A DNA stretch of 64,000 nt from Morchella semilibera (taxonomy: Eukaryota > Ascomycota > Pezizomycetes > Pezizales > Morchellaceae): positions 1 through 64,000 of the forward strand of contig WBVU01000022.1 in NCBI GenBank assembly GCA_009192285.1, written 5' to 3'. The notes under the pieces were generated by a model. The model was not told where the DNA came from. It saw only the letters and a program-made list of their open reading frames with translations, and did not search any database. Positions 1 through 64,000 of the stretch are shown here, one piece after another. The number at the start of each line of letters is the position of its first letter. Within the stretch, counting starts at the first letter, position 1. Position numbers and translations under genes: made by a program.

Positions 1-322
1 CGCGTTGTCTAGGATTCACATCACGGCCATCAGCTTGCAGCGGGTTGACATCACTTTTGATCAGTCTTGGCGTTGCGGAAATGACCAAACCTCCGTTTTT
101 TGTGCACAAAAAGATTTTTTCTTTTTCCAAGAACTCGAATGCCACTGGGCTACGCAAAACGCCACCGTTCCTAGGCTGCCTTTGACTTCCAAAAACGTCG
201 GTCTTAGCTTCAAACTTCTTTAACGTATTTCTAAATATCCCGTTAAATCTACTACTACCCAGACTTTCAAGTAAGTAAGGTTTATCTCCAGTTGGTATTG
301 TCCTTGGCTTAATCCTCGTCAT
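1..322 (-). CDS. 5' part of an unidentified protein gene, running off the left edge
   Basis: Reading the minus strand from the ATG at 322-320, the frame stays open for 107 codons up to the window edge, so only the N-terminal part is visible. The protein begins MTRIKPRTIPTGDKPYLLES and is basic and hydrophilic, with no membrane segment or signal peptide. I do not recognise a domain in it. An open frame of this length in 45-50% GC DNA is suggestive but not proof of coding. It could be a host gene, one exon of one, or a relic of a mobile element. The plus-strand frame over the same bases is shorter and looks less protein-like. Confidence 0.4.
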   Translation of the reverse strand, partial: MTRIKPRTIPTGDKPYLLESLGSSRFNGIFRNTLKKFEAKTDVFGSQRQPRNGGVLRSPVAFEFLEKEKIFLCTKNGGLVISATPRLIKSDVNPLQADGRDVNPRQR

Positions 323-3300
323 ACTTCTTATGCAAGTGGCATCCTGCATAAAGTTGGTACTGCCATCAGGGCCATTGAGGCAGTATGTGTGTCACTATAT
401 GTACTAGCATACCGGAAGCTGCTGTGGGCAATTGCATTACATTATCCATCATGTCATGCAGCTGTAGTGACCGATATCTCCTACTGGAATTGGCAAAGAG
501 GGATGGACCACTACATGGCCCGGGCCGCGTGTGCTCAGCCGAATGAGTACTAGAGAATAGGTATCCCTCTCCCCCAAACATCTGTCTGCATGTAAGGTGA
601 ACAAAGCTCAGGTAATGTGGAGGATTCCAGGCTGCCGCTGCACTGGAAAAACCCAAGAATCCATTCCGTCTTTGTGCGCACCCTCCAGTACGTACATATG
701 CTGTGTATCTTTCTCCCACCGGTAACTAATGTACTGACGTGTATAGTGAACGTATATTCCTCGATGTTGTTAAAACGGCCAATGATAGGAAGCCAGTGCT
801 TCTTAATTGGTTGATAGGGCTAAGACCCCCGGAATTTGCAGATTTTGGCTGTAGGCCCAAACATAACACATATGCCCTTCTTGACCTCATCTCCCACCGG
901 CGATGTTTAATAAAGCAATTGCAGGACTTGGCAGCTTTATCTTGGCATATACTACTTCCTGACTGGCTATCCCCACTCTATCTTTACCTTCCAACTCCCT
1001 CACCCTCCCCCCCTCCCCCTTTCACCACTTCCAGTATCATCAAAAATGTTCCCATATCTCTGCTCCCTCGCAACATCCCGCACAGTTCCCTTCATGCTCA
1101 GCATTGACATCACGGCTGAGACGGAATCGTATCGAGAAAATAGTTCCGGTTTAACTCGGGTACTACAGAGATAACTATGAAGTCGATAATGCATTCTTGG
1201 CGGGGGGAGGTCAAATCAAGCAAGATCACGACACCGAGTTGTGGGTCAACGTAGCAGCTGTTTCTCAAACAATAGCGCGGGGGCAGAGTGGCAGCGGATT
1301 GGTGCATACATTCGATGGAAGGGTTTCATCTCTTATAACATTCACCCCCTGATCCACGCCATACATTTATTGATCGGTGGTATGGTAGCTAGTTGCTAGG
1401 AAGGAGACCAGTCGTAGATGCACTTACATTCGTGGTCAGCGTAGCGGCTATCCACATGTGGACAATTCAGCCCTCGGGCCATAATGATTTCGCTTGTTAG
1501 TTAGTATCACTTCCATGATCTCTGACATTGAATATTTACCGGAGCTTACCTACCTCAAACTCGGTATAATCAGTCTGAATCTGCAAATCGGATGCTTCGC
1601 CGACAGCTTCCGAGGTTTTCTTTGATCAGTAGGGTCTCGTGTATATCCGCCCAGCTTCGTCGTCGAGCGCATTTCGATGCAGTACATCTCCCGCAGCAGG
1701 CAACAACCGTTGTGGACAACTCCTTGCTGCCTCACTTCACTACAGATCGACTCCTCAGGTTTAAATCGTGAATTTTGAAAATGGGAGAAAGATCTGCATA
1801 ACTTACTCTACATAAGCAGTTTACACGCCACCATCGGTTGGGGGAGGAGAGCTACTGCCACGGGACCACATATTCACTCATCGGCTATTATTACAATTAT
1901 TAGCCACGTGGGCGTGCTGTTTCTCATTTGTGTGAGCGAGCTGAGCAAGAGAGAATTCAACAGGTTACACTACCGTCTTAGGTCTTGCTGCGGTAGATCT
2001 GTTGTTGAGCCTATCAAGGAGAAACAGTCGTGGGGAGGGGAATTGATTCAGTGTCAACAGCACTTGCTCTACTAAAGGATGCGTTGGATCTTTTTGCAGG
2101 CTGCACCTCTACTATTTCGAGGCAAAAGGGGACAATTTTGGTAATTGATCTTCCCCGGAGCTCCCTCCTCTTTCTCCCTATCCTCCCTTCTCCACTCCAT
2201 GGGTACCATTCCCGTAGCATTATCAGTGATCGTAACTCTTTTTTTGTGTGTAATATAATTCTGTAGGGCTCACTCGCTCGCTCGCTGACTGCATACCACC
2301 GATATGCGGTCAAATACATACGCACTCATTGGTACTTGGCCCAGGTGACAGAGTTCCTCTATCATAATGACAATATAAACATTAGTTACTGGATTATCGC
2401 GGGAATCTGATCATGATCGAGGTTAAGAGAGCAGAGTATGTATATACTAAGCATGGATTAGGAAAGAAAGAAAAAAAAAATTAGGAAAGCAACGAATGTT
2501 ATTTATAATTTGTGACTGGCGATCTGATCTGAGGCTTGTTATAACTCTTGACCCAAAAGAACTTGTACTAGTGCTCAATTCTCCTATTAGACACTAGTAC
2601 TGCCGCCGAGACATTTGTTTCCATCAGGACCTGGAAGCGGATGTTCAATCCAGTTGTTCTTACCACGAAATGCCTCCTCTAACGGCCCGACCCAGATGCA
2701 GATTCGATTCCGGCTACCATTTTTCCATTCCCTAACGGTCCCAGATTCATTGTAATCCAGGAAAGAGAGTAATACTCACGGACCATTTCTTGGGATGGGC
2801 AGGAGTGAATATCACTGAAATGACCTGAGCGTGTGTGCAAGATTAGCACTGGCGCATGCCGGGGTGGACGGATCCGCCAGATGGCTGGGTCAAAATGTCG
2901 GTACCATTCCATATTTCCCGGGGGAGGGGGAGGGGGGGGAGGGGGGGGGAGGGAGGGTGGAGGGATCGAGGACAACTCCTCTGTAACTAGAGTACATGTA
3001 CCACTGAATGCTGGGACAAGACGTAAGTACATCCTCTACCTAGTCCCGTGCCTCACCTATAACCATCCATTTTCCTTATTACAGCGAGGGGGAAAATTAT
3101 TATAGAAGTATAGTACGAGTCCTATTAGCTGAGGGCAGCCACATAAACCTTGTTTTTAGACCCCTGTTTCCACAATAATAATTTTTCCCCATCGCTGTAG
3201 GGAAAAAATATCCCACCTTCCCCCCACATATAAACTACTTCTAGTACTCCCCCACAAATACGTAACAGGGCTGACTGCCAGGGAACCACATCTTGAACCA

Positions 3301-4386
3301 AGAAACTATTAATACACTAGCTAGAGTAAGTAAACGATACCCTTAATTTTACTCCTTCCCCGTGGGGTTCTACATGATTAAAGCTATATATATATATATT
3401 TATAAAGCACCGTGTACGGCATCCGCGGATGCGGCTACGGCTTGCTAAAACACACACCGCCGCCGCCGAGAAGGCTGGTTCCCGTGCCTACTGCTTCAAG
3501 ATGAGGTCTACTGCCTTGAGCTTCCTTCTTCATACTCTTTGCGGTCAAGGATTAGTTGATGGACGACGTTCCACAGCGTTGATAACTTGCTTTTCCCGGT
3601 GCGGGTGGTTTAATGTTATGTAGTTGGATTTTTTTTGTTATTTGAGCTTTCCTAAATTAGTAGTACTGCAAGTAACGATTATGTTTTACTCGTACAAAGT
3701 TACTCGGAATAACATGAGCCGTCCACTCGATGTGTGGAGTAGAGTAAATAGCAAGACAAAAGGCAATGATTGATTGGGGGGGGGGGGAATTCCTTCCCTA
3801 ACTCTTGGTCATGTGGAGCGAGGCAGTCTAAACGCTCATGTATGTACCTATAGGTACAGATACAGAAAGCACACAGGAAAACTCGGCATTCTCTTAGCCC
3901 CTCCTAAATCCCCGCCGCTGCTATGTTCTATTGTGTTCTGTCTGCATAGTGCTCTAGTGAGGTTGTTTGTCGGTGAAACAACACCCAATACTACGCCGCC
4001 CTACACGCTAGGGCAGGGTAACCCCACTCTTTTTCTACTAGCAAAACACACCAAAAATCGAGTCATCAACAAATAAAAAGTCCCATAGATATAACAAAAC
4101 TGTGCCAACCGAGTCTAACATAATTCGGATACAGGAGATTTATGTTTCAAATTCCTGGCCTAATTGAGATTCTGGTAGGAGTGGAGAGAAAAGCAGTAAA
4201 AGGCGTTTTTAGACACCCTCACCACTAGGTCCCATTCTTTGTGAATAGGCCCTAAAACTGGCCTATAGACACCTTCAGGTGCCTAGACACAAGCGCACAA
4301 TCCAAGGGAAATGGGAAAACTCTCAGGACTCTGTGCTCCTCGGTGTCTCTCTCCGGTCGCGACAATACATTGTGGTTATGCGAGTA

Positions 4387-4547
4387 CAGTCGTTCATGGG
4401 GTGAAGATGGACACTGGTGTTGACGGACAGGCATCATGACTATGAGTTATAGTGAGGAACGCCCAAGCTTCTTTTTAATATTTCTTATTCGTTGAAATCC
4501 CCCTGTTCGTTAACACCTAGTGTCCGTCTTCACCCCGTGAACGACTG
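4387..4547. mobile_element. 161-bp MITE with TA target duplication (pogo/Tc1-mariner style ends)
   Basis: The two ends are inverted copies of about 40-46 bp, starting CAGTCGTTCAYGGGGTGAAG, with only a few mismatches, mostly C/T or G/A. TA dinucleotides flank both ends (4385-4386 and 4548-4549). The interior is about 80 bp and carries no coding sequence. Ends starting CAG next to a TA duplication are typical of non-autonomous pogo/Fot1 or Tc1-mariner derivatives in fungi. Family assignment is inference. Confidence 0.7.
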
Positions 4548-4669
4548 TACTTTACGTTCCTCCCCACCCCCAGCAAGCAAGCAAAACAGGTCTGCGGAGA
4601 TGAGATCTCTTTAGAACCATCTGATGGGCGCTCGTGATACCTGAGACCTGCAATCAACCTCTTTTTCAC

Positions 4670-5253: not shown

Positions 5254-8200
5254 GTAAGTTTTAGTAGGGGTCTAGATCTTAGCTCAGTGACCAGTGTCAG
5301 TTCAGGGTAGTCTTGGAAATCTGCACGAACCACACCGCAACAACGCCAACAACCAGCTAGCCTGACCGATCTCCGCGCCCCGATCCCGATTCCATCGGAA
5401 ACCAAACAACACCGACCGCTAATAATTGCGCGCTGATCAATATTTTGGGGCATCTGATTGGCCAACAATGAGGAAAATATCCCCTACCCTACCAACCAGT
5501 AGGCGCACTTTACGTTGACAGCCAGCTAGGTCTTGGCGAGGTCGGAAAATGGGGATGTGAAATCAAGAATAGTTGAGTAGAGGAGCAGTAGTAGGGTGAT
5601 GATGACTGTGACTCTACTCTACTGGACACAACACCTCCATTTTTTTTTTCCTTCTCTCTCTGCGCCCTGAGAAAGAGGCTAGAGATAGAGTGCTTGTACC
5701 GCGTGCCTCAGAGAGATCGTAGAAGGGGGGGCCAAAGTACGATGGGATGCGTGGGGGAAAACTAGCTAGCACTACTGTAGGTACTGGAGATGAGGTTCTG
5801 GGATAGAGTAGATAGGTTGTTTATCCACTCTATCCTGATTCTGGATAGCGATTGGGTTTTAGGATTTAACCGGACCCTCTTAGACTTCACCGAGAAATTA
5901 AAAAAAAAAAAATTCCTAGGCATCGCGGATAATGCAGGAACTACGGTAACGGATTTTGTCTGAAACACTTTTGATTAGGATGCCATGAAGGGTGCCATTA
6001 ACAAAAAAACTCAGGGCTCATCACAACGGGCTGTGGTTGGTTGTGGCCGCGGTTTGTAGCAAATCGGAGAGGACGGTGGTGGGCTTTGAGCTCTCTTTCA
6101 ACTGCGCCAAAGGAACTCATGAGTAAGAGAAACTCTATCGGGTAAGGATTTACTCGTTTTTCATTTTTTTTTATCTCTGCTTGAACAGCAAGGCCGCGCT
6201 GACTGAGGCTATGAGGTTGTTTTGTATTTCCGCTCGATATCTTGGTGTTGAGTGCATTGGGTTCACGTCAGGGTAAGGGTTTTTGTTAAGAATATTAGTT
6301 GCATGGGGTCTTGGCACGAAATCACCATGGCCTACCACGGCGAGTGAATATTAGCTTCTTCTCCGAGTTTCTTTTCTTCTGCCTCTTTTTCTGCCCTTCC
6401 AGGACCGTCAAGGGTGATGGAAGGTGGCGGATAAACGGAACCACCAAATGCCAAACAAGCCTCTGGTATCGAACCGATGTGATAACTCTGGTTGGTCCAG
6501 TTTACTTGCGAGGCCCCAAAACAAAACAACTCAACCCTAACCCTAGATAGTGAAACGGTAGGCAGTTCCCAAACTGGTCAAGTTCGATTCATCTCCCACC
6601 CCCACAGAAAGGCCAGAACACCCACCCTCGTTTCGGGTTCCCCTATCAAAGCTTAATCAATCTTGTTTCTATTTTCGTGCTTTTTCCTCATTCTTGCAAA
6701 CCGTTGGGGGGTGCTTCCTATCTGGTTCAAGAGTGTATCTATCGATATCAATCTGCTGCTCTGTCCCCCTCCCCCCTCCCCAGGGAGAATCTAATCAATA
6801 CCATTGGCCCTACACTTCCTGGCCCACCACAAGGCACTCCCGATTCTAACTATCCCACCCACCAGTAACAGAAGAGAGTCACCCTCTCTCTCTGCTGACT
6901 CGTCCACTTATCCCCCCCCGGGCCCACGTTACCCTGCGTCTGCATCATGCACTGTGGTGGAGCACAGGACAGGCAAAGGCAACGGAAAACGGTGGTAGGT
7001 ATTATGTACGCAGGGGTAGAATACATAGGACCGCTGAGGAACAGAAATAGTCCTCTGTATACAGCCAGCCTTGAGGGGGAGGAAAATCATTGTCCACCCA
7101 AAACTACCATGTACCTGGATGTACCGTAAGGAGATGTCGCGCGGCCGGTAACTACGGTAGAGTTACCTACATAGGTACGGCAGTAGGTACCTTAGTAACC
7201 CTAACACCAATCAACCTATCAAACCCCAAATAGCGGAACGGAAGCCAGGGGTAGTTAGCGGCTTACTCAATATAGTCACATAAGTGCACTAAGCGAACGC
7301 GACAGAGACAAAATATTCGAAAACGCCAAATCGTGGGGTTCTTCGAGAATAGGCGACAGAGCTCCTATGTATACATGTATGTCTATTTACTTGCGAAGCC
7401 CCCCCCCTATCTACACCCCCCCCCCAAAAGGCGCAGCAATGAATGAAAGGGAAGGAGGAGCTCCCAATGGAGTAATAGCAGGGGGTTTTTCTGTTAAAAT
7501 AAAATAAAATAAAACCGCACATATCTTTCTCCCCTCCAGGGTAATGAGGAATATCAGCGACCGACCGACCGACCGAACCTACCGGGGGTGCTTGATTTTC
7601 AAGATACAGAGCGATAATCTTGATCTTGACGGCCATCTAGTTTATTATCCCGAAGTTCTGGCACACCCCACATGGGGTGTGCGCGTGTGTGTGTGGGTGC
7701 AGGGGTTCACTTCAATTCAGCAGTGCAGCAGCAGCAAGCAAGCAGCAGTAGGGGTATGTATGACCGACAGGTAGCTTAGGTTACTCTACTCTACACTTGC
7801 TCTACATACCTTACCTCACCTCACTCTACTCACTCTGGAGTAGCAGATATGTACTCTACCCAATTGCTGTATTAGGATGGGGTGAGGTTAGAGGTAGGTG
7901 TGACTGTATATCGCAAGGCCAAAAAACCATTGATTCAACATCAAATCCACCGATTTCAACAACGACCGGGGAAAAAAACAGGATCATGGCAACCGTCAAC
8001 GAGCGCGAGAGTAGAAAGGGAAAGTCCATAACCAGAAGGGAAATAAAAACAGAGCCCCGTCAGGAAAGGGTCAGTTTTTGCTGGGGAAGGCGAAGTTGCA
8101 AATTTCGCGATTTGATCGATCGAGTGCATGGCCCTTGGTGGGCTTTTTTCCCTTGACGCCCCTCCTAACAGTTGGGTTTTTTCTCTCTCTTTCCCTCTCT

Positions 8201-10568: not shown

Positions 10569-13500
10569 AATTGTTGGATTAGTGTGTTTTTAGCTAAACG
10601 AGCGTGGGCTGGCTGATATTGACGGAACTTTTCTGAAAAAAAGCGAGTGCGATGGGGCTTTCAATGTGGCAAAGGCAGAGGACAGGCTTTATTGTATTTG
10701 TTGATGGAGGAGGGCTGGAGACGAGGGTGAATGTGTAGTAGGTATATAGATAGGATTATAAAAAAGAATAAGCCCGGAATTCTCTTTGAGTATATAATGT
10801 AATGGGTTGAGTATGGAAGAGGAGGAGTAAGAGAGAGAGAGGGAAGGAGCAAGCGGGAATAGGGCAGCTATTAAGTTGAGCGACCTAATAACAGTAATTC
10901 AGTGATTCTAATGGATGGATGGGCCAACTATCGATAAGTACGATGATCGAGCGTATATTACATGTATTTTTATTTTTATTCCCCGACCAAGAGGGTGGGA
11001 GGATGTTCTGTTCTACTGTCACACAGCAGGGTGAGCGAGCAGAGAAGAGGACTAGCCTACAGGTTACTTACAGCGGACGGGCTTTCTGCAGCAGAGGGAT
11101 TCAGGATGCTGTTTCGGTGCTCGTGCTGTGCGTGTACAGTACATTCGTTGCTTGGCCTCACGGGAGGGTGTGGTGGGAGTGTGGGATGGGGGTTGGTGGT
11201 GGGATGCAGGCCAGTGCTGTCTGCAGGATTTGGGGCATGGGTTGGACGGGGGGAGAAGGGGGGGGGGGGGGTGGGTTTGTGGATTGGTAGGTTGTGGATT
11301 GGCGGGATGAGTGGGGTCCTTTTTGGTACTCTCTACATGATATTCCTACATATCGCGTGGAGGTAAAACTTATTGATGATGCTTCCTACTAAACTTCAAA
11401 ACTTGAACACCGAGTGTTACTTCACACTTCACTTCCCCCATCATCCTCCCATCCCCTCCCTCGGCTTGCCGGTATTGTCAGAACCCACTCAGGATTGGAA
11501 TCCCGATATGTTGATGGCCAGTGCAGACCTGATAGTGTTTCATGAGCACGGCAGATATTCATGAGGGACTGTGAGACCAGTTATCTCTATAGATGTGTAC
11601 CCTACCCGGTGCGTGTTGCAATAAAGTTTTGGTCGAGCCTGTAGAGTATAGAGCAGATATCCGAGTACGTATCAAAGTCACCTCGCAAACCACTTATTCG
11701 CTGGTAATGAGAGGGATAGAAAAGTGGGATGTATGTACCTAGCTTCATACTTACTTACCTACCGTAGGTATAGATAGGTATTACGGAGATTAGTAGTGTG
11801 GTGTAGTTAGTTGAATCGGCGTTCGTGACTCGGCTGGAGGACGATCAACGGTCCCCCCGAACTGTCACAATTTCCAATTCTGTGACCCTTTCGAGATGAC
11901 GTTTTGTCCACGTCTTAATCCTGATCGACCTCGTTAGACCATTTTGGACAGGTTCGTAACCTGGAACAAAATGATATGAAAAATTATTCCCTACACGTAC
12001 TCCAAAGTACTATACTCGATATAATTAGGAAGCATGTATGTACTTATGTGTACATACCTCACTGTACGAGGTAAGTAATACCTTTAGGTACCTGAACTCT
12101 GATATGTGTAACCCGAGGTTTCTAGTGACAAATGCCATTTTCAAAAGCCCCAGAGGTTTTCTTACTTCAACTCCAACGGTTTTCCTTTTTTCCTTTGCCC
12201 CTCTTCTACTAAACAAGCGAGCGAATCAGGCCAAGCATCGAATCAAGATCTGGAGAAATGAAAATTCTTGCGATCTCGGAGGAAAAGTTTTCACGCTCGT
12301 ACCATCCCATACGTACCATATCTTTGCTCTCTTTGCAAGTTTATAATGACACAAACCTCTTTGGATTGGATTCGTTTATACAAACCTTGTCTCCAGTCAG
12401 ATCGCGATAATCGATATTCACCCTTCAGAAGTCTCAAAACACTCGATCGGTGTTTCTCTTCTCCCCTCTTTTGTTCTCGTTGTCTATCTCCCCACACTAC
12501 CAACGAGTTAATTGTCAAGGTGATCCCACCCACACACGATGATATCCACATCTGTCAGATCTCGGAACTCCAAAACTGTCAAGGGACTGTTTGCTTTGTT
12601 CATCATCCTCTGTTGATACCAAACGCATTATCTTTCTTCATCATCTCGTAAGAAAGCCCGACATTGACACCTACACCTACCTATTCATTCACTCACCTGT
12701 TATTCCTTTACCCCCACTATACAACCCCCCAACGTACTCTCACCAGATCCCTATCTAGGCTCACTCCCCACACGCATAATTTTCCCCTTCCCGGTCTAAT
12801 TTGCATCTTGTCTTTCTGTTTAACTACTTACATACACACGTACATCATGCCTTACACACCACCTAAACACCACACACCACCCATCCACGCCTACATACAT
12901 AACACATAGTTATCCAGATCTGGCTTCTTCAAACCACGAAACAAGCCCTCTCTCTATCTTACAACTCACATGCAAATCATGCGGCTGGATTAGATGGATC
13001 GAGAGAGTGCGCATAGATACATGAGCTGTGCCCCCCCCCCCCCCGCGCTTTCGCGCGTGCGCTGTGGATAGCGAGCCCGTTTCGCCTCTTCTATCCCCGA
13101 CAAATTTTCGGTTGCCCGTTCTTCCTTCGTTTTTCCCTTTTTTTTTTTTTTTTTTTTTTCCCTTTCTTTTCTTTTGGGCCTCGTTGCCTACCGATGATCG
13201 ACGGCAGTGGATTCCTTCCTGCTCGCTAATGGCGCTTTTTATTTTTATTCCCCTGTCCATCATTAAACCAGCAGCATCAGACATCGAGAACCGTTTGTAA
13301 ATCGGACCAGGAGCATAACTGTGCTGGCCCTGCCCGTTGTGTAGAGTACAGCTCAGCATCATGGCATAACCCTTCTCGGCCCCCTCCACCGCCAGGACCG
13401 CTAAAAGGGCCGAGACCATACAAACTAAATAGAGACTATACAGGCAGCCCTATCATCTTTCCCCGTCTGTGCCCTTCCCTCTTCCCCGGTCCGAAAGATA

Positions 13501-42969: not shown

Positions 42970-43494
42970 CTGCCCTGATTCTCCACTGTGTTGAATGCAG
43001 TGCGGGTCTTGAGGGCTGAGTGAGTCTCATGCAATATACTAACTACATGTATGCATATATATACACACGTAGCTGAGATCGAGGGGGAAGGGATCTGTGT
43101 ATGCAAATGATGAAATGTGGTACAAAGAGTACTGATAGCAAACAGTAGAATAGTAACTATCACACTCTCTGTACCCGGTTTGAGAAGGAGAAGGAGTGGA
43201 GTAGGGGGAAAAACGTTAGATGGCAAGGGACTCACTCCATGTCTTTTGGGACGCTTGTAACACCTCAATTCGGTCCGATCCCCAAGGTTTAACACAACAC
43301 CGACAGGTAAGAGAAAAGGCTAGTGCTGCATATCTCAAGCGATACCAGTGAAAGTCAGGAAATCGCAAGCAGTTTTTGCTTCTACTTGTAGAAAAAAGAA
43401 GCTACTCTACTATTCCCCCCTCTCATAGATCGTCACGCAAGCGGCGCTAAGTAGCTAAATGGTATCTTTCCTTGATTCCACGACATACACTCCC

Positions 43495-49749: not shown

Positions 49750-52700
49750 CCGGTGGAGATGAGGCTTGTGGCGTGCGTGGTGTTTATTCTTGTATCTTGT
49801 ATCTTGGGATGGTTCCGAGGTTGGGTTCGTGGGGGGACACAAGCAAGTTGATCATTCGGTTGCCGCTTCTTGGTTCGGTGAACTTTGAGTTTGGTGTGGT
49901 GAATGGATCTGATTGGCCCCCGCAGTCTTGGCATATATTAAAGATGAGTTACCCTGACCAACCTTTTGAAATCTTAGTGTGAACCATTATTCATTGGCTA
50001 ACCTTCATCACTCAGCACACGTACACCAAGCTTTATATTTAATCTACATTTGCGCTTATAAACAGCAGCGGCCAGCAAGCTATACCAACTTCCGCTAGGG
50101 CAGCTAGCTTCTAGGTAGTAAAGTTCTAGCGAGCGGCTTAGGTCATGGTTTGGTGCGCACCAGCTAGCTGACTACTCGTCTACCATAAGAACCATGGCCA
50201 GAGAAAATGCAGTTTCTCAGGTCAAGGGTAATTTGTATGGATTAGCGATAATCCCTCCTACAAATCACCCCTGTTTCCGTTACTTGCATATCTAGTTCAT
50301 TTCGCGGTAAACGAGTATAATTGGAGCAATTATCTTAATCCGGGATAGGAGTGAGTGGTGCTTTGATCCTAATTCAACTATCAGAACAGGCGTACGAGTC
50401 TACTACTCCTCTAGTAACACCGGAGCCCCTGCCAGCCAGCCCAAACATAACAAGAATTCTAAGCATACAATGAAAATCTGGTTTATTAAACTCAGGGCCC
50501 CGTTAAACCCACTACGGCTAACTAGGGTCTAGGATAGATTTCGGAAACATATTTCCACAAGGATAATTCGATAAGGCGGGACGGAAGACCCGTTACCGTC
50601 ATATCATAGTCTCACAGATACCCCTACTGATCTCATCATTAGCACAGGAGCCTGGGCAAATGTTGGATGTCTTCAAAGATCATGTCACTCCAATCATCAC
50701 CCCTTATAATAACATACGTTCGAATAAAATCCGATGGCTTAATCACCTGACTACGTTTGTGTCATCCCAGATATTCAATTGGAACGGAAGCCTCTCAACA
50801 GGATTAAACTCAGTCACATGTGCACTACTAAATTGAGCATTGCTGCAATAATTGGCTCGGTTTTAATGAATCCTCTCGTGCGCTTCGGATCTGATCATCG
50901 GGAAATATTCAGATTTTCTCAAAAGAAGCTAAAGAGCCGGGCCCCTGGTACTTTCAACCTATCAAAACTACATGTAGCACGCAAAAGATCGGAGCGGCGC
51001 ATCTCGGATGGCACGGCTTAAGAATTTGGTCACTCAGGTGAGCACAGCGTCCAGCGATCAGCCGGTGTTGAAACTGGGCGATTGTTGGGGATTCAATACA
51101 TGTCCTAAAGGGGAGATAATCTCTGTTGGAAGCGTATTTTGCAGCGATCACAGCCTGCTCAAGGATGAAATTATTGATTTCTGGCAAGAGAATGGCTGGG
51201 TGTGTAAGATAGCAAATACCCTCGTTCATGTCGAAGAAACCTCTGACACTTGCCGAAGCGCAGCAGTGGGGGCCTTGTACCATGAAACTCACACTTAGAG
51301 ATACTCCAAAAAAAAAAAGCAAAATTCTCTCTAATATGACGTCTTACTAGGCACTAATGTACTGCACAGCAAGCATATTGCTAGTAATGTGGCTGTCAAA
51401 GCCAACTGCCAAGTGATCACCCGATGTCAGGGTTGCTAGTACATGCAAGTCAGCTAGTGCAGGGCCCGCATTAATTGCTACATCAGCTCTAAGGTGTTAA
51501 TCATATCCCACTTATCGGAATCAGAGCTAAAACCAAGACTAGCCCTCGGTTGATAATGAAGAGTGAGTCACAGTGCGTCACTCGGAACTATTCATGAAAT
51601 AAATTGCACAAACCACATACCGAAAATTAAAACCGGACAACACAATCAACCATGACATCAACAATTCTCGTGAAGGCCCACAACAACTTACTCTTACGAC
51701 CCCACTCTAGATTTGCCGATGCTAGCTGTATGTACCTTGTGACGCTATAACCCTAGATGGTTAGTATAGCCGCAACACTACATTTTTATCCGTCCGAAAA
51801 AGAAATAAAGCTGACGACAGGAATCCCAAAGACACGATACCGCCGATAAGTGGGAACACAGAAAAACCAATAGGGTAGAGAGGTATTGAAAAAGATGAAA
51901 GATACTTAAGTTCGCTATCGGTATTATTACTATCGCTTCAAACCCCCTCCCCCCCTTGCCAAGAAGAGAAGACGTAGTCTTAAGTGCCAATTTACTGTAG
52001 GATAAGGGGCAACGATAGCGGACCTATCGAGTACTAACGGTAGGGGTTGGACGTTGTAGCAGCCATGGCTTGTATGAGGTTGGCTTAATTGCTTCATAAA
52101 ACGTATTTCGGTAAAAACCTAATCTTTTTTTTTACCCATGGTTCAGGGATGTGAGGAATAAACAAGGGTGAATTAAATATTCCTCTATTTATTAAATTTG
52201 GTATTTAAAATCCATTTATCAACGTTAGTACTAAATGAATGATTCTTGCTAGCCCTTGATAGTGAGCCAAAATGTTAGATTTTTATTGTAAATGTTTACT
52301 CGTTTGATATATTAGCTAGTGCAAATTTTCAGATTGCTAATATCCGCGCTACCTACGATACATACGCGCATGTATATGTAGCAATAAGCTGATGTTTCAC
52401 TCTATTCTGCCCGCTGAAGAATACCTATGTAAGTTAACCACGACCCGTACCGATAGCCCCATGCCCAAACATGCAATATCGAGAAGCTTGGAAGTTCAAG
52501 CTTCCCACCCGCAAAGAAACCCGACATCACCAATGATTACCAAAAGAAATTGAGGAATACAACGGGGCACAGCTCTATCTTCATATGCATAATTTTAAGG
52601 ACTATAAGGTAAGGTCCTGATTTAATTACCGTATGGTACGATCGGTCTAGGCCATGTCAAGCGGATCGGCACGTTGTGCGCACGCAATTTTGAAGCACAC

Positions 52701-55691
52701 AGGGTACCAGCAATATATTGGTGCTTGTTTTACTCTGACTGTATCCGAAATCTCGGGTTATCGATGGGATAGGATAATTTCAGGGAGCGATGCGACGAAC
52801 ATGTGGGGATGGGCGATTTGGCATAGCTGCTGGTCCTTTCAACCACTCTATTTTGATGAACCTAACTGCTTGTCAAGCCCAGATCTAGACAGGGAGTTAG
52901 CCTCAAGCTTAACCGCAGACAACTGAGCAACGACCTGCCTATTCGGTAATAATCTCCGTACCACACTTTGAAAATCATATTTCTCCGATATCAGCAATTG
53001 CAAACCAAACGTGGTATATACTTGTTGGATATATCAATATTTTATAAAATGGTGTATGATGTATAAATTCGGTGCGGGTTCCGGTTGTATCCGGCCAATT
53101 TACCTAGCTATAGATGAGATTACCTTTTACCTAGTGGCGGGGGGCTCGGTAGGGAGCGCTTTATTGAAATCAGGATCTAATGGGATATAATAGGGCACTA
53201 CACCCGTATTTCCCAGGGTCCTGTCGGCGTCGGTATTACTTTCAATATTGTCGCCCTTTTGGCCAAATTTCGCAGCGGACACTACCCTCCATGGCCATCT
53301 CCTGCATAGATTATTGTCATATCGAGGATCAAGTATATTCTACTGCCAGCGGGCCTGCATTCCGGGATGAATTGACAACGGAGTCAATTTTGCTCTTGAT
53401 ACATAGTGTAAACTAGTTGTTGTCACAGCCCTGTCTGATATCCAGATCCTATAGGTAGGCTCACGTTCACATATAACCCCACTCATTACAACTGACCCCA
53501 GTTCGTGCCAGCTTCTGGGTGTTAGGTAATACCAACTACATATAGAGAGCTCCCTACAATAGCCTAATATTACTACTATGTTCAATGGGCCTGGCCCGCT
53601 CGAGCACGAGCTGATCTTTAGGCTCATTGTGTGGAAGGCTGGTGTAGTGGGACATGGCAAGTGAGCACCCTCCTACCGGACGCTGGAGTGTACTCCGGGC
53701 CCGTGTTCCCCGGGGGGGGGGGGGGTTCGTGGACAGGAGTGAGCTAGCTCTAACGCGGTGTAATAGAGTTTCAACCCCAGAGCTGGGGTAATCTTGGGCT
53801 GTTGATCGTGTATATTTAGGATATTGCTGCGCTATATAACCCCTTTGGAGAGGGGGGGGGGGGTACTCGTCGTGTTACTACTGATTGGGTTTATATGAGC
53901 GCTGAACGGTGGGATATACTCGTAATTTCATAGCGTTTTTAAACACAGCTGGGTCTGCATACCACCAAGATTTGGAGCCTCATGCAGGATTTGGCGGGAA
54001 TGCACACCTAGTTGTGTTTAAAAACGCTATGAAATTACGAATAGATAACCTTAAAAGCGAGTTTAGCCTATACATAGATGTGTTGTATGGTTTCGATATA
54101 ATGGGAATACAAGAAGTAATATAATTACCTTGGCCGCCGCATTGTACACAACTCTACTCCTCTTGGTATTAAGCAGCATATACTTTCCTCCGGATCCGCA
54201 GACCAGCTCTACCCTGCAGAGAAAGAAAGAGAGACACTTGCTGCCATTAAGGGTGCCAATGCTAATGCCCATGATTATTTGGTATGTATAGATCGGAGAT
54301 GCGGTAGCTTGTATGTTAAATACATCATGTATATATGTACATGTACATGTAGTTCTAGCTTGGGCGGGAAATCCTAAGTTGTCTATGAAACTCAACTGAA
54401 GAAGAGGAAAGTGCGCCAACACCCCCAGATTTTATGAGCTACAGAAAGACCCCCAATTAGACCACTCTAGATATATCTACTCCCAACCTCTGTAACCGCC
54501 CCCTGGGGGGGAGGGGTGCCGGAGGAGAGTATCGGCTATATTCAAATCTCCATCTCCCACGGTAGTACAACATTAGCACTTATTCAAAGCCAGCAGGCAT
54601 GCGAATATGCAGGAGACCATACTTGATCTCCCGAGCAGCTTCAACCCAGGAACCACTGTTCCAGAGTATCCGGTAAACTGGTCCGCCCGCAACTCCCAAG
54701 AGGGGGCTAGCTCTACAAGACAGATCCGAGCTTAGCCGACCCGACCCGCTCTGGGGATGCAGTAGCTATGGTAGGACGTAGATCACGATGGCTCTGTAGG
54801 TACACCCAAGTACATAACTACCGGTCTACCAGCTAGATGTAAGTACTGTACTGTGCATGTGGTTGGCGCCAATAGCTCGCCTTATAAGGCAGTGGGATGC
54901 TATATGCACGCTCTGCTTACTGTTGGGCTAATCCCCCGGATTGGCCATTAATTTGGACTCTCTCTCTCGCCGAAGGGCTGGGGCAATAAGCCGCAGCAGT
55001 CGGGGCCCAGAAGAGGGTCTGGAATAGTTGGTCATGCAATCAAACAGAGGAAAACCGTGTTGGTACTAACCGCGTTTAATTCCTCATTTGGCCTCGTTAA
55101 GGAGAAAACCTGGCGCTTATCATATGGGCGTCTAGTTATGTGAAAGTACACTATAGTTACTACATGTATACATGTATATATACTCTCACTAGTACTCCCT
55201 GCCCTGCGAGTTTAGTACGTACCGAGTGCTGGGTCCCTATATTATGTAATGATTGCGAGTGTAATCTGGGGGAAAGAAATGAATTCTACACTCGTTACGC
55301 GGTAAAGGCGCTAGGCGGCGAGTGAGAGTACCGTGATTATCATCAGTAGTTCGGATCTTGCTTTGGGGGGATTCGGAATGTCTTTCGATAATCAATTAAG
55401 GCGTTTTTAATCGGTATTCGGATTGTGTGTTTCTACCAAACTAAACTACCAAGAGGTGGTGACCGAAAAAACCAAGCCCGGATGAGCGAGCACCAGAGAT
55501 GACTCGGTGCTCGCCAAGCGACGAGTGATTTCCCATGACCTTGTACGCCAGCTCTGCCAAAGAAAGAGAGGTACACGAGTCATAGGAAGCCTAAGGCTCC
55601 ACATTTATTTATTATGATTAAATATCTACTAAATATTCCCCAGACCTAACTCCAAACCCAAACACCTGTAGGAAATAGTTGTTTACAAAAC
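49750..55691. other. 6-kb stretch without a recognisable gene
   Basis: Frames of 70-120 codons exist (for example 50954-51322 minus and 52654-52926 plus), but none shows a known domain. Present are a near-perfect hairpin element (53919-54041), 14-G and 12-G runs (about 53712 and 53852) and paired TACATGTA palindromes near 54340 and 55165. Confidence 0.45.
53919..54041. mobile_element. 123-bp foldback MITE with TA duplication
   Basis: The outer 28 bases (TCGTAATTTCATAGCGTTTT then TAAACACA) are exact inverted copies at the two ends. The pairing continues inward with scattered mismatches almost to the centre, so the whole element can fold into one long hairpin. TA flanks both sides. It has no coding capacity. 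The family is probably Tc1-mariner/pogo-like, by inference from the TA duplication. Confidence 0.75.
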
Positions 55692-55985: not shown

Positions 55986-58900
55986 TGTACCCTGTAGTGG
56001 GGCAGTGGATTCTAGGCTCTGCCGTGATGGCGGGTGACGGCAGGGATCTGGTAGGATTTGTTCGAGTGCTGGTTGGGAAAGGGGTTTTCGTTAGTATGTA
56101 GTGGCGATATAGGCTTGTCAATATGACTGTGTGATATTGGTGATGGTAGACTAACCGGTATACGTGTATGTCCTTCTCGGCGCCAGGGTGCTAGAGTGGG
56201 GGGCCCGTTCTGTACACTACAAGTACAGTACTGGCAAAGGAGACTACAGCATAGATTGTAGATCGACAACAATATTGTCACTAAAGGTTTCTCTAGTAAT
56301 AGAACATTAGAGCTGAAATCAATCTGTAGGGAAGAGAACTTACAGAAAATTCAAAGAGTGAACCCGAGAATTTTGTGCACAAGGCCTCAGTGGATACAAT
56401 CACACGTATATCAAGACTGATTACCGGTATTAGCAATAGAGCGCCCAGATGGGGAGAAAAGGGACTGGAATCTTACCAAAATGAACTGTGGGTTGGGTGG
56501 CTATTAAAAATTATATGTTATTGGTGAGCGCTTTAAGTAGAAGTCGACCGGTAAAGAATGTCCAGGATACCATACAAAAATAAACAAGCCCCCAAACTCC
56601 AAAAAGAACAGTAAATACAGGCAAAGGAGACAGTGCTTCGAAGAATGTAGAACTCAGGAGGAAGAAGAAGTAAGGGAGAAAAATGGAGAACACCCATTAA
56701 GTAGGAAACCTGAGACAAGGCCGTACGTCCCCTTCTATGAATAGCAATCTGGACTGATAAGGTCTGAGGTCGTTGTGCTTGGACTGCTCGGACAAGGAGC
56801 ACATATCTGTAGTTTAATTCCCACCAACCCGGAAACACTTCCAGAACGAAGGGGAATCGGGTGGGCGCAAACGTTATCGATTGGCAAACATATGCACGTT
56901 TATTTGGCTACCAACTATAGTAAGGCTAACTGAACTCCGGAACTTGGAAGATCCGCAAGGAGATATTTTGTTCATGCGGAAAGCCAATGCCAATCCTTTT
57001 TCAGCATAAAGGCCCGTTCTGAACACCTCTCGACCCCCTTTCCCCAGAAGCCTAGAACCCCGGGGTACTACATAAGCATTATCTTTGTAAGTGGAGGTAG
57101 GCACGCTGCAACTCTCGTAAAATTCTTATCGTGAGCATTACTCATGAGAAATCCAGGAGGCTAGCTACATTGCTGTCGATAACCCCATCTCCGGCCTCGC
57201 TTCCCAGGGTGTAGTTAAAGTTGAGACATCGAAACATATATGCGCACTGCACGGTTTGCAGATTCGGGAACTTCCGGATGGACGCGTGTTGCGTTCTTGC
57301 GGGAGAGAAGAAAGCTTGATTACTTAATGCAGATCCGGCATCAATAAGCACTACAGATCTCCCAGTGGTCTCCCTTTCACGATACAAAGAGTATGTGCTT
57401 GAAACATCAGCAATGAACCATTGATGTTTTCCACAAGGCAACGCGTCCCCCAAATATCAGGCTTCGAAAGACCCAATTTCCGGGAATGGCTATGCTGTAG
57501 CCTCTGTGTAATGTCTTAGTCCAAGTCATAACGCACTCCAGATATTCATTACTTGTTATTTGGGGGGTACATACGTAGTGTCGTGCAGTACGAGCTGCCC
57601 ACGACATACCTACTTCATGCTCCAGTCCCCTAGCCTCCCATTTTGTAGCGTTGGAAGCATGATACAACAACGCATCAAGTACCTGTGGTCTACATGTCCC
57701 CACAATTATTCTGTTCGCCGAGGCAGGCGACACTCACCTACAATGTCTGACCCAAGGCGATACCTAGGCGCCTCCTGAGTATGTGCTGTGGACCGTGCAC
57801 TCGGCCGCGTGGTCTTCCCCTGCGCAATGATGTCTCACCTTGGCCGAACCCTTCTCAACAAAACATGTTTTGTGCAAACATCCGGACCGTAAGTAGTCGA
57901 TAGTCCATCGATCCATCTGATGAGACAGCCATGCCAGGTACATAGTGTCATCGGGCCAATGACAAAAAAAATAAAGCTTATTTGCCTACCATCAGAAAAC
58001 GATAGCCCTTTCGGACCAATCTCCAGTTTCAAAAGTGGCCACAAGATTCTGAAACTTCCCCTAAACACTCAATAGGATTCGATACGTGCTTTTTGTAAAA
58101 ACGGGATATTTCTCATCGATCTTTGGTTATCCAGCTGAGCTTTGGCCATCCGTCTTGCTTTTGATGGCTGTGTGATCGCAAGTGCAAATACTGCTTTCTA
58201 GCCAACTATGAGAACTTCAAGCTCATGAGCCCCTCCTTCTGTTTGCCGTCCTGTCCGCTGGCTGAAGGACATCGTGGCTCAAAGTGATATGCCGAATCCA
58301 AGGATAATTGTGTTTTCAACAGGACCAGTCTGTTGCATAGCGGATTGATGAAACATAGACCAATCGGTAGGTCAAGGTGGGAGTGTGAGGTGGACTGTTC
58401 TAGATGGTTAGTCGAGGGGTATCCAAGATAGAGGCCTTAAGGTGATATATGGATGATGTTTACGAAGCTAAGGAATGATATGATAATGTTGTGCGATTGC
58501 ATAATGAAAACCTCCACGCAGATATTCATGATTGAGAAATTTAAGGATAAGGCGGAGCTCTGCACGATGATGAAAGAGTGACCGCCGAAAATGATCAGAA
58601 AGACCTAGGAAAGAGCGGCTACTAATCATAAAGATACAGGTGGTCGAGCAGTCAAGCTAGGTGGTTGCTTTTTAGCTTCATGTTACATCACTCGGCGGGT
58701 TTATTACCCGGGAAAAAAAGCAAAGCGCCGACGTTACGTACCCGCACTAGCAGAGCAGAGAATACCAGGATCCTGTCTTGTAGGTACGTATAGCTTTTAG
58801 GTACATCATATACACCATGTACGTTACATACATGTACATACATTAATACATGTAGTATTCCAAATGGTTTTACTCGGGGCAGGCAGAAAGAAAAAAAACT

Positions 58901-60867
58901 TGGAAATGATCTTTGCTGGCAATGAATCATGACTTGTTCTGATCTCAAGATTATTCGGCTCCAGTCCCTGCTTGACGCCTGCTCTGGAGATTCTTTCTTT
59001 TTCGAAGCACATACGCCCAAGACGAGCTTACAAGATGACTTGATGCCTCGTGGAATGCACTACATAACCCGTAGTTAGTTCAGGTTGATACACGTATAGC
59101 CTTCATGTACCTGGCCCGATCTACTTGAAGTTGCGTATCTACATGTAGTGAGCTATAAGACCCAAAGCTCTGTTGAATCGCAAATAGATACATGTACATG
59201 TTCATGTATGTACAGCGGTGGGTAATAAGTCATCGGATGGCTAGGCTACAATTTTGCCATTTTGGTGGCGTTCCGTCCCATGACTTATTACCCACCGCTG
59301 TACATACATCATGTAGGCCATATATTACTTGATTTAGCACATCCAGCTGGCGGCAAGATTCCCCCACCGTTACCCGGTTCAACCCTCCAAGATAGGGGTT
59401 AAGTGTCGGTAAGACTTACCCCAGGTGTGTTCGGTCATAGAGCGATAAAAATGGAGCATCCCGTCAGATCTGCTGTACCCAAATATCGTATCGCCTGGTC
59501 AGTACTGCAGTCGGTGACGGTGCAGGAATCTCAGGTACTGAACTCCCAGATCTCATCTTTTTTCCCCCCTTTAGATCTGAGATTTTAGGTTTTTGGACAT
59601 CGCATGCACCATGCTTTCGATCCTGCCCCATGGGAACATTGTGACATTTGATCCAGCCACTAGACGCCTATTCGAGGATAAACCGCTCGAGATTTAAATT
59701 TGAATATTGCCATAAGATATAGGTAGGAAGTTTATTTTACCTCCAGCCCCAACCGTCCGGCAGATGTGTTTGGATCGATCCTCAACGCACTTTGATTTTA
59801 CCGCTTACATACATGTATTTGATGACAGGACCGAAGAACATCCAAATCTGGCCCCAGTTACTGGGGAGGGGGGGGCTTGGCTCACAGAACCTCACTCGGC
59901 CGTTGGACCGGCCCCCCAACCAAACCTACCTCAAGACAACCGAGGCCCGCGGGGGGGAAAACAACAACTGTATCATGGAGCTCTCCATAGACGATGGGTG
60001 ATCTAAATCTAAATACTTTAATACGGCGAGTAGTTCCATCTCCCTTGTCTGGGTGTTTTCTACCTGTACAGCAAGCAGCACCTCTACTTCGATTCCAGCG
60101 TATGTGGGGTGCCAAGAGTTGTTGGCAAATCGGATATTGTCGACTAATACAGGTTCGAGTGATAATATATGACCAACGACCCCCGCCTATTTTATGGACT
60201 GCGAGACCTCTGTCGTTTCCTAGTAGGTGTGTGGTCTGGACGCTCGCGATGCTGGGCTGGGCTGGGGGGGGGGGAGTACTGTGCGGGGCCAGCACCCCCG
60301 GCGAAGCAACCCGGATCCGGCGGGGTCTCAACACCGCATTGTATGGAACACGGGCCCTGCGTGCATCTTGTATGTTTGGCTATTACGGAGGGGTATGAAG
60401 TTTACTAGCTAGGCTGTATATGTTGTTGTCGGAGTAGTATCTACATTATTTCCGCCAAGAACGCTACACAGGATCATTGGCTTGGCTTAACCTGCAAGCG
60501 AGTGATATTCCATGCCGCCAACCAGCTACTTCCGGTCTTCGTTCTCGAGGCTTCAACGCAGGGTCTCGGCATCCTGGTGTTATAAAACCTTTTAACCCGT
60601 GGTGCACACCTAGCTTAGTCGTGGGCCTAAAGAGCGGCGAAAGGTCAAGAGGAAGTTTGAGATGTGGTAAAGGAGCAATGATCATTATTTCGCAAAGGAG
60701 AAAAGAAAGAAAATGCAGCAAAACTCCGTACCTGTCCTTTATGATACACGTGTATAGTAGTAATAGTAGTATGAAGCCAGGAGACAAAGAAAAGATCGGA
60801 ATAAAAGGAAAAGGCAAGGAAAGGGAGAAAAAGAAAAAGAGAAAAGGCACCGAACTACTACATGTAG
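55986..60867. other. Stretch with weak minus-strand ORF cluster, no recognised gene
   Basis: Five minus-strand frames of 76-108 codons follow one another between 56533 and 58068, more than expected by chance, but none matches a family I know and no consistent splicing emerged. A 110-codon minus frame at 58688-59020 begins MGVCASKKKE, which resembles an N-myristoylation start. A MITE lies at 59213-59300, and there is an 11-G run at about 60264. The end contains the SSL1 3' region. Confidence 0.4.
59213..59300. mobile_element. 88-bp MITE inserted in a palindromic target
   Basis: CAGCGGTGGGTAATAAGTCA(T) at the left end is repeated perfectly inverted at the right end. TA duplications lie at 59211-59212 and 59301-59302. 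The bases outside the TA are also symmetric (ATGTATG and CATACAT), so the empty site would have been the 16-bp palindrome ATGTATGTACATACAT. The interior is about 46 bp and non-coding. Confidence 0.7.
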
Positions 60868-62404
60868 CTAACCATCAATCTCCATCGCCTCCGCCGCCGC
60901 CGCTGCCGACGCCAGCGTAGCCCCATTAGCCGCCGCCCCATCTACCTTTTGGCTCGCCGCAGCGCTTGACTGGCAGCCGGGGCAGTTATACAGCGTCTCA
61001 TGGCAGAAGACGTCGCAGTCGATACAGAACTGCCCGCTGCACTCCGTGCACCTATACCGGCTACTCACACTAGTACCCCGCTCTGTCCGTGCCGGCGCCT
61101 CCCAATCCTCACTCCCCTTCTCTGGGAGCGCCGGAAACGGCGCCTGACATGCGCGACACACTGTTGCCGTCGCCTCAACCCACGGAACCTCTACCCAGTT
61201 CCGCAGCGGGAACAGGTGGTGGTAGTGGCGCGCCAGATGTGTGGAGAGCACCAGCATGAGACCGCATGCAGGGCACTCCATTGGCAGCTCACAGACCTTC
61301 GTTGAGCAGCGCGAGCAGAGGTATCCGCCCTTGGCCAGTTTCGAGTGGCATGCGCAGAGCGAGGCGGACTTTTCGACGACGCGCGAGGGGAAACCCCACA
61401 TGAGCAGGCATGCGGCCGACATCTTTGCGGAGCGCGTCACAGGCGGGATAGTAGTGTCTATGAGGAGCTCTCGGAAGTGCTTATCGTCGAGAGCGACGCC
61501 GTAGGCGCTCGTGTCGCCAGCATTCGTCTTTTGCACAAGCTCGGCGCAGACGGCGACTTGAGCGGAGAGGCCGACAACACTGACGCGGATCTTGTCGGTC
61601 ACCAGGTGGGAGATAGTTTGGTGGATGTCCCCGGGGTCGGAGGAGTGTAGGGCGCCGAAGACAATAACTACTTCGCGGGTGCCATGCGTGGGGGCGTTGC
61701 TAGAGGGGGGCCGGGGGTCAGTATATAGTGATGTGGAGAGCGGAGGGGAGTTTTCACAATAGGGCGGCCCGCGACATCTCGAGAGCGTTTTGGAGACTTG
61801 GGGAGCCTTTAGGGTCGTCAAGACGGAGCTTCTGGATAGCATCGATGTGGTCCGTGGGGTTTCCGGACATGTCACTAACGCGGACGGCGAGGCCGTCGCG
61901 CATGCCCAGCACGCCGAGTTGGGAGATTGGGTTCTGTTCAAAGTACTCGCGGACGTAGTCGCACGCGTACCGGATGGACAGGAGGTATCTGCTGGGGCGG
62001 AAATCCTTCTCGGCCATGGCTATTGATAGGTCCAGGATGAGCATGACATGCCGGATGATTCCTCTCTGCAGCGGTGTCGTGTCCTTCAGGAGCCTTTATT
62101 TACACCAGATGTCAGCTTCAGAAAGGCCTCGAACTTCAGTCTGATATTGTAGTAATAGTAGTAATGGTAGTGGTCTAAACCTTTTCCGCTTCCCGGCGTC
62201 AAGGAGGCCGGTGACATTGATGCTCCCGTCGGCGCCCTCGACGACATTGTCCCAGGAACGCTTGATATCCTCCCATGCTTCTTTCTTCTGGACCTTTTTA
62301 GCTTTCGAGGAATGGCGCGCGCCTTTTGGGCCTCGCCGGCTGACGATGTGGGCACCGGCTTCGTCGCCGGAGGAGTTCACGTAGTCCTCGTCGGAGTCGG
62401 CCAT
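60868..62404 (-). CDS. SSL1: TFIIH core subunit Ssl1 (p44)
   Basis: Subunit of the general transcription/repair factor TFIIH that binds and stimulates the XPD/Rad3 helicase in promoter opening and nucleotide excision repair. Three exons: 62404-62181, 62093-61758 and 61699-60868, giving 463 residues, close to the yeast protein. The acidic start (MADSDEDYVNSSGDE) is followed by KRSWDNVVEGADGSINV. A von Willebrand A-type domain follows (about residues 85-270), with RGIIRHVMLILDLSIAMAEK, DFRPSRYLLSIRYACDYVRE, SQLGVLGMRDGLAVRVSDMS and the Ssl1-specific HGTREVVIVFGALHSSDPGD. The C-terminal half has the zinc ligands: CACHSKLAKGGYLCSRC, CELPMECPACGL, then the RING-like CRACQAPFP and CTECSGQFCIDCDVFCHE with CPGC. 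It ends in an Ala-rich tail. A 267-bp MITE lies about 185 bp upstream of the start codon. Confidence 0.96.
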
Positions 62405-62856: not shown

Positions 62857-63813
62857 TAATAAACTGAATGAGTAACGGACCTATCATGGGAGCCGTCATT
62901 ATCATAAAAGCTCTTTTGACATATGACTCGAATATCAGCAGTGCACTTAAGATCAGCACCTAACGAAGCACAAGAGGAAGAAGGGAGATAGAATAGGAAG
63001 AAGAGAAAGATCGAAGATGAGATAAATAAATAGCAGCAAGAGGACACGATCGCTAGAGGACACGATCACAGAAGAACTGAATGACACATATACTACTCCT
63101 TCTTATGCTATATTACACCATCACTGGAGTACATGTAGGTACAGATTGTGGCTCTTATCGTTTGAGTACATGTACTTACTAATGTGTATATACTTACATG
63201 TGGATATAAATAAAAGCTTTTGTCTGTCGTACTGCTCACCGTTGAGTACAAATACTCTACTCCGTCACGCGAAACACAGCATTGTAGGCATTATCCCTCA
63301 TATACTTAAGCTTTATATACATGTATATAACCCTCACATATGAACCTTACTACAAACGTGTATCCCCAGGACACAATCGAGGGGCCTGTTAATCAAATAT
63401 GATATATGCCATGACAGGAGGATACAGTATATGTACATGTAAGTAGGTACTTGCTGGCAGCTACAAAGTAAGACTGGTTCCTTAGATGGGGAGCAAACAT
63501 AGCATTTCAAAACTCCGATTTCAAATATTGCCAAGTGCTCGTTACACGGTAAATCGAACAACAAGCAAATCAGCTGTTACACAGAGTCCGATCCATAAAA
63601 AGCTTGAACAGTCGAGTTTGGCCCTCCATCCCCGGCCGGAAAAACGTTAATCCAGAATCGCTGAGTCATCTACACCCCCAAAAGCAGTCCCAGCCCTACC
63701 CTAGTCTCCACAACCACCACTACAGACTGATACCGAAATCCGGCCAAATCATCGATACGCACGGGAATTATCACCAGCCAGCCAGTCAGCCAAACACGCC
63801 AAACCCCCCCTAC

Positions 63814-63901
63814 TGTAGGTTCTCAATCTCCACAATACCCGCGGCTTTCCCCCCTTCCGGATACGAGTTAATCAGAATTTCTGCGATAGTCGTTTTTTTA
63901 C
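63814..63901 (-). CDS. Possible single exon of an unidentified gene entering from the right edge
   Basis: Bounded by a good acceptor (TTTTAAG before 63901) and a GTAGGG donor after 63814, an 88-nt open segment encodes KKTTIAEILINSYPEGGKAA followed by GIVEIENLQ. The composition is protein-like and the segment has proper splice edges, but I cannot name a family and found no neighbouring exon. Chance remains quite possible. Confidence 0.2.
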
Positions 63902-64000
63902 CTTAAAACACCAACCAAAACCGCCAAAAATGGAAAACGATAAGGGTATGGACAACCCCCCTTGAGTTTGGGATCTTGAGTATTGGGATCCTGAGATTCC

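Follow-up and report, generated by a model that had tools for sequence, protein, structure and literature searches.

The stretch analysed here, which we call the window, comprises bases 1-64000 (64 kb) of contig C18 (GenBank WBVU01000022.1) of the Morchella semilibera assembly, which has 56,756,124 bases in 23 contigs. The palindromic 8-mer TACATGTA occurs in the window 39 times (Table 1), as compared with a mean of 1.10 and a maximum of 4 copies in 100 dinucleotide shuffles. This confirms the original prediction of about 39 copies against about one expected; two of the eight starts quoted in it (2993 and 24061) were exact, while six were off by 1-2 bases, the true starts being 27731, 42510, 46079, 54338, 58829 and 63167. 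Pfam matches were obtained in eight of the ten window open frames scanned: a TPP-enzyme segment, read as acetolactate synthase, and segments of sugar-transporter, Na/H-exchanger, aldo/keto-reductase, ribosomal-S4 (IMP3), CAP-Gly and Ssl1 type. For IMP3 and for SSL1, a subunit of TFIIH, the closest proteins of solved structure are fungal-type chains, the species of which we presume from entry codes and yeast gene names; together with the GC-poor, repeat-rich stretches of the genome, these proteins point to a filamentous ascomycete. An open frame at 29321 precedes the sugar-transporter segment, the last called coding segment of the window adjoins SSL1 and is without a Pfam match, and a 5S rRNA gene lies at 59427-59546, with four copies of TACATGTA within 600 bp upstream.

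Table 1. Copies of TACATGTA in the window and the TA dinucleotides lying two bases beyond their ends (outer TA). Positions take in the outer TA where there is one; no row has a strand.
Feature	Position	Outer TA	Remarks
TACATGTA	2993..3000	none	
TACATGTA	7372..7379	none	
TACATGTA	10959..10966	none	
TACATGTA	13629..13636	none	
TACATGTA 23660-23667	23656..23671	both sides	full TAnnTACATGTAnnTA
TACATGTA	24061..24068	none	paired with 24103
TACATGTA	24103..24110	none	paired with 24061
TACATGTA 24790-24797	24786..24797	left	
TACATGTA	27010..27017	none	
TACATGTA 27731-27738	27727..27738	left	paired with 27786
TACATGTA 27786-27793	27782..27793	left	
TACATGTA	28039..28046	none	
TACATGTA 28888-28895	28888..28899	right	~430 bp before open frame 29321
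TACATGTA	32077..32084	none	~1.3 kb before Na/H exchanger segments
TACATGTA 37191-37198	37187..37198	left	divergent spacer, aldo/keto reductase (-)–IMP3 (+)
TACATGTA 37716-37723	37712..37723	left	same divergent spacer
TACATGTA	41849..41856	none	
TACATGTA	42510..42517	none	paired with 42549
TACATGTA 42549-42556	42545..42560	both sides	
TACATGTA	42859..42866	none	
TACATGTA 43044-43051	43040..43051	left	
TACATGTA 45883-45890	45879..45890	left	
TACATGTA 46079-46086	46079..46090	right	paired with 46115
TACATGTA 46115-46122	46115..46126	right	
TACATGTA	50969..50976	none	
two overlapping TACATGTA (54338, 54344)	54334..54351	left of first	6-bp spacing
two abutting TACATGTA (55161, 55169)	55161..55180	right of second	8-bp spacing
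TACATGTA 58829-58836	58825..58840	both sides	
TACATGTA	58847..58854	none	18 bp from 58829
TACATGTA 59140-59147	59136..59147	left	
TACATGTA 59189-59196	59185..59196	left	~230 bp before 5S rRNA gene
TACATGTA 59810-59817	59806..59817	left	
TACATGTA 60859-60866	60859..60870	right	directly beyond 3' end of SSL1 frame
TACATGTA 63130-63137	63130..63141	right	~670 bp upstream of last called coding segment
TACATGTA 63167-63174	63167..63178	right	
TACATGTA 63318-63325	63314..63329	both sides	
TACATGTA 63434-63441	63430..63445	both sides	

The excess is not confined to the window. The window and 17 stretches of 10 kb from elsewhere in the genome (numbered with the prefix L) formed a 234 kb sample, in which TACATGTA was found 80 times against 4.1 expected under a second-order Markov model, i.e., a 19.5-fold excess; L012 and L013 overlap nearly totally, L015 and L016 are GC-poor, and the 204 kb unique sample, which includes the window but lacks L013, L015 and L016, holds 76 copies. 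The whole genome (56.76 Mb) contains 22,206 copies, with only 3,723 of the reversed word ATGTACAT. Scaled to this length, the expectation is about 990 and the excess about 22-fold, so the genome-wide count is far from the near-Markov value that the original prediction had named as speaking against it. These totals are inflated, though the densities are not, by the look-alike contigs C9/C10, C21/C22 and probably C12/C13, which are near-identical by sequence or length and are probably duplicated contigs of the assembly; the compared stretches of C9/C10 (9,842 bp) and C21/C22 (3,597 bp) are 100% identical, and a comparison of alleles between the contig pairs is therefore uninformative. Markov models of orders 1-3 gave expectations of 2.7, 3.9 and 5.0 for a 214 kb sample with 80 copies found. 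Under a maximal-order model the 39 window copies look unremarkable (31.7 expected), because the word raises its own 6- and 7-letter parts and so hides its excess. The density in the window (one copy per 1.64 kb) exceeds the genome average (one per 2.56 kb) by a factor of about 1.6.

Among the palindromic 8-mers with at least six copies in the 234 kb sample, TACATGTA ranks first, the runner-up TATATATA being raised 4.7-fold. When all 8-mers are considered, the run CCCCCCCC has a higher z-score (58.4 vs. 53.0) with a lower ratio (16-fold). The core is strict: single-mismatch words numbered 127 against 89.6 expected, as compared with 80 against 3.9 for the exact core. Likewise, TACA followed directly by TGTA was found 80 times (4.4 expected), while a gap of one base gave no copies and gaps of 2-15 bases gave 4-13. 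In the sample, ATGTACAT, built of the same parts, was raised only about 3-fold and TACATACA about 6-fold. As to the palindromes GTACCTA/TAGGTAC reported as companions of the word, the former is mildly raised (42 vs. 23.6), whereas TAGGTACCTA and TACCTAGGTA are too rare to matter (2 and 0 copies, 0.4 expected for each, strand-doubled).

A dispersed repeat family was considered as a carrier of the word and dropped on the sample evidence. Searched by blastn against the other sampled loci (E up to 1e-3, low-complexity filter on), the flanks of the 39 window sites gave no match; a common repeat family, were it the carrier of one site in every 2.6 kb, would be expected to surface in the sample, and it did not. 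Within the sample, therefore, no single repeat family accounts for the copies, and the suggestion that they were spread by small elements finds no support, as no sampled repeat carries window copies.

What the original prediction did not contain is that TACATGTA sits at the centre of the longer palindrome TAnnTACATGTAnnTA, in which a TA lies exactly two bases beyond each end of the core, and that the sites pair at exactly 10 bp. Genome-wide, TACATGTANNTA was counted 8,250 times in forward and 8,087 times in reverse orientation, so that 16,337 of the 44,412 flanks (36.8%) bear the outer TA; one base further out, with three bases between, TA is present in 3,606 flanks (1,716 + 1,890; 8.1%). At isolated sample sites, TA occupied bases +3/+4 in 54 of 166 flanks (32.5%), as compared with 237 of 3,392 (7.0%) for permuted control words. 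The full TAnnTACATGTAnnTA occurs 3,317 times in the genome against about 3,000 if the two sides were independent, which is near independence. The linker dinucleotide between the core and the outer TA is varied (14 of the 16 types, with TA, TG and TT commonest), and the outer TA is thus not one tandem copy; with TG, CA and TA linkers excluded, it was still present in 44 of 163 flanks (27.0%). The base directly outside the core is seldom A (11%), and the flanks are rich in TATA, GTAC, TACA and TAAGTA.

Pairs of TACATGTA spaced by exactly 10 bp number 606 genome-wide, as against 8.7 under uniform spacing, and their linkers are varied; overlapping pairs at 6 bp number 501. Gaps of 0-30 bases (spacings of 8-38 bp) gave at least 2,666 matches and gaps of 31-60 bases (39-68 bp) at least 1,627, both lower bounds, seemingly with one match per start; with the 10-bp class left out, spacings of 8-68 bp average about 6-8 times the uniform level. 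In the window, 9 of the 38 gaps are no longer than 60 bp against 1.35 for random placement, which bears out the claim that the copies often come in pairs. Triples at 10 bp were found 13 times, four of them being two look-alike pairs on C12/C13, while 16.5 would follow from the pair rate. As the triples do not exceed this rate and the outer-TA linker is varied, minisatellite growth and tandem slippage are rejected as explanations. The sites thus show local clustering with a favoured 10-bp phase and no array growth.

None of the 76 sites in the unique sample falls within the 32.9 kb of called coding segments, where 12.3 would be expected; as far as the crude calls allow, this agrees with the statement that the copies lie outside coding exons. 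The calls come from a home-made predictor of low sensitivity, the codon bias being weak; of two predictors, the first was dropped as probably overfitted, and the second was kept for the inside-coding count and a crude upstream/downstream profile. The word is also absent from 8.4 kb of short-chain dehydrogenase (PF00106) domains and from the 250 bp next to either end of the 17 matches of this family, which come from 17 of 20 loci, L025, L038 and L041 having been removed as duplicates.

Taken together, the strict core, the TA at a fixed offset, the one-turn pairing with free linkers, the clustering and the avoidance of called coding DNA suggest a widely used dimer-binding site. The over-representation, the core, the outer TA and the 10-bp pairing hold genome-wide, and the coding avoidance holds for the sample. 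On balance, we favour the view that TACATGTA is the core of a putative protein-binding site, most simply that of a homodimer, in non-coding DNA. A sequence-specific protein would read the two TACA/TGTA halves, contacting the core strictly and reading in addition the outer TA on either side (TAnnTACATGTAnnTA), and two dimers would often sit one helical turn (10 bp) apart. The sites, often several within about 70 bp of non-coding DNA, would resemble homotypic regulatory clusters, and the bound protein may regulate transcription or organise intergenic chromatin. Of the three explanations offered in the original prediction, which is thus partly supported, the protein-binding option is the one that the sharp 8-bp core, the TA, the pairing and the coding avoidance favour.

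Several observations weigh against this reading. A classical promoter element is expected to lean upstream, and in our small and crude gene sets no such bias was seen: of the sites around the 17 PF00106 matches (25.5 kb on each side), 16 were on the upstream and 21 on the downstream side, the 41 crude gene calls showed no upstream preference either, and just three sites lie within 300 bp of the called coding edges. Sites without upstream bias are hard to take for plain promoter elements, and a role in the organisation of chromatin would be compatible with their placement. Furthermore, the outer-TA signature peaks at TACATGTA but is not unique to it: with the TG, CA and TA linkers again excluded, it was also found at TACTTA (22/108, 20.4%), TATGTA (42/222, 18.9%) and TACATA (15.2%), as compared with 5.6-13.8% for the remaining words with at least 80 copies, and unfiltered counts gave 16 of 92 for TATATATA and 5 of 10 for TGTATACA. 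It also fits with the preference of an inserting element for its target. The one-mismatch neighbours of the word retain the outer TA in 46 of 284 cases (16.2%), as decayed copies would; since this lies between the 7.0% of the controls and the 32.5% of exact copies, some neighbours are weak or decayed sites, and the result reads both ways, not separating selection from decay. On the side of protein binding, the word is scarce where transposon-like repeats are present: L007, L009 and L019, which have such repeats and normal GC, hold one site in 30 kb against 12.9 expected. This contrast is suggestive only, as the loci were grouped after the site counts had been seen, and the transposon copies may just not be old enough to have acquired sites. 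L014, also with inverted-repeat elements, has two sites, and the GC-poor (26%), repeat-rich L015 and L016 (C12 and C13 at 1.0 Mb), which look like isochores of the repeat-induced point mutation type, have none.

A more specific and more speculative version of the protein-binding reading, which we put forward only tentatively, is that filamentous fungi have a so far undescribed factor with a general regulatory or architectural function, which would bind TAnnTACATGTAnnTA at some 20,000 intergenic positions, often in 10-bp-phased pairs and with no preference for gene starts. Such a factor would not switch single genes but give order to the chromatin between genes (boundaries, nucleosome-free regions, origins), and the same core in oomycetes would reflect convergence or a common protein family. 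An exact 8-letter word that is about twenty-fold over-represented across a whole eukaryotic genome calls for a cause: a protein reading TACATGTA may touch much of the intergenic DNA of the fungus, and TAnnTACATGTAnnTA would then serve as a probe for fishing out the protein.

The same word is known from other systems. In Phytophthora, the identical 8-bp palindrome, also abundant (motif-1, or M93), is among the most abundant upstream motifs (12,070 Phytophthora genes); it correlates there with expression during infection (PMC3520976, PMC3597505), and the authors of PMC3520976 take it as suggestive of a homodimer site. The match adds a second lineage for comparison, although Phytophthora is an oomycete and Morchella a fungus, so that both an independent origin and a common protein family are possible. 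The published passages compared mention neither an outer TA at +3/+4 nor 10-bp pairing for motif-1. TACATGTA is also cited as the preferred site of the Irx (Iroquois) homeodomain proteins of the TALE/KN class (PMC3520976); in that citation, the Irx site does not include an outer TA. The Morchella genome has one Homeobox_KN (PF05920) match above the cut-off (C14:782200, 51.1 bits), and among the titles and opening parts of abstracts listed in our literature searches none names a fungal protein for TACATGTA, a negative that extends to these searches only. We describe TACATGTA as a putative abundant palindromic cis-element and do not class it as an Irx-type site.

The main rival to protein binding, now weakened and in our opinion improbable, is that the copies are excision footprints of Tc1/mariner-type transposons. 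Insertion at TA followed by excision that leaves two terminal bases of each end would give TA-CA-TG-TA, the outer TAs would reflect a palindromic target preference of the element (TAnnTAnnTA), and the 10-bp and 6-bp spacings would arise where an element struck again, at an outer TA or at the site's own TA. It is in this form alone that the preferred insertion target of the original prediction lives on. A rare Tc1 footprint reported for C. elegans, taCATGta, has indeed the same eight letters (PMC3520976), and the raised spacings sit where repeat events would land. Moreover, the genome has 69 Tc1-type DDE_3 matches, 57 of them above the cut-off; the possible half-footprints TACATA/TATGTA are raised (310 vs. 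162), with outer-TA values intermediate, and the one-mismatch neighbours keep part of this signal; and in a 38-bp alignment between the otherwise unrelated clusters L003 and L024, TA-TA stands against TACATGTA with a 4-base gap. However, some 22,000 fixed excisions would be needed, and no abundant source was found in the sample: the expected element end TACAGT is at chance level (115 vs. 116.5), and donor elements with TA-CA...TG-TA ends were not found in number in 263 kb, where TACA/TGTA ends gave 7 complexity-filtered inverted-repeat pairs (eight other combinations of ends gave 0-13), with one of the six pairs viewed being judged a real element (window 4385-4549). Pairs ending in GA...TC are commoner (13), yet they come without an excess of TAGATCTA, the footprint word expected of them (5 vs. 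3.6). The near absence of the word from the three transposon-containing loci, a post hoc grouping, also speaks against footprints. Few homologous copies hold a site, and that none of these few shows a clean 6-bp gain at TA is not counted either way. If the word nevertheless were a footprint, it would preserve the traces of tens of thousands of earlier excisions of transposons.

A purely mutational or low-complexity effect appears similarly unlikely. Here, intergenic cryptic repeats rich in TAC/GTA (TACATACA, TGTATGTA, TAGGTA) would give rise to TACATGTA at the junctions where the strand switches, and no protein would bind it. The composition of the flanks, the raised TACATACA and the strong clustering are in line with this, whereas the restriction of the TACA/TGTA excess to gap 0, the modest level of the control word ATGTACAT, the position-specific outer TA behind a varied dinucleotide and the triples not above the pair rate are not. 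We give still less credit to a signal at the RNA level, where the palindrome would supply UGUA on both strands for 3'-end formation of convergent genes. UGUA is a cleavage-factor site, and 21 of the 37 sites around the PF00106 matches are downstream; however, the other 16 are upstream, the convergent exchanger–reductase spacer of the window (35192-35914) contains no copy of TACATGTA, and UGUA alone requires neither an exact 8-bp palindrome nor outer TAs on both sides. Least credible of all is the target of a DNA-modifying enzyme, or of another DNA-binding activity with no regulatory role, by which the word would be protected or attracted: a palindromic 8-mer with an exact core would suit it, but modification targets need not be over-represented, and no result obtained here supports it.

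Some other repeats were seen in the course of the analysis. The TA-flanked element of about 160 bp at window 4385-4549 has CAGTCGTTCATGGG inverted ends with arms matching in 31 of the first 40 bases, and looks like a Tc1-type miniature inverted-repeat transposable element (MITE). The 13 TA-flanked inverted-repeat pairs with GA...TC ends, some nested or overlapping (e.g., window 62588-62858, L005:7292-7425 and L014:3164-4046), several with GAG..TTnGCCA-like arms, possibly form a MITE superfamily. Repeats at window 22286-22446 and 23070-23302 are common to L010 and L037 at 80-83% identity. The window also contains 24 runs of eight or more G or C (for instance, at 11258, 13031, 25987, 35476, 36982, 39607, 40867, 41611 and 53712), and in the 204 kb sample the lengths of such runs look two-humped, unlike a plain decay, with 10 runs of length 8, 2 of length 9 and 24 of lengths 10-12.

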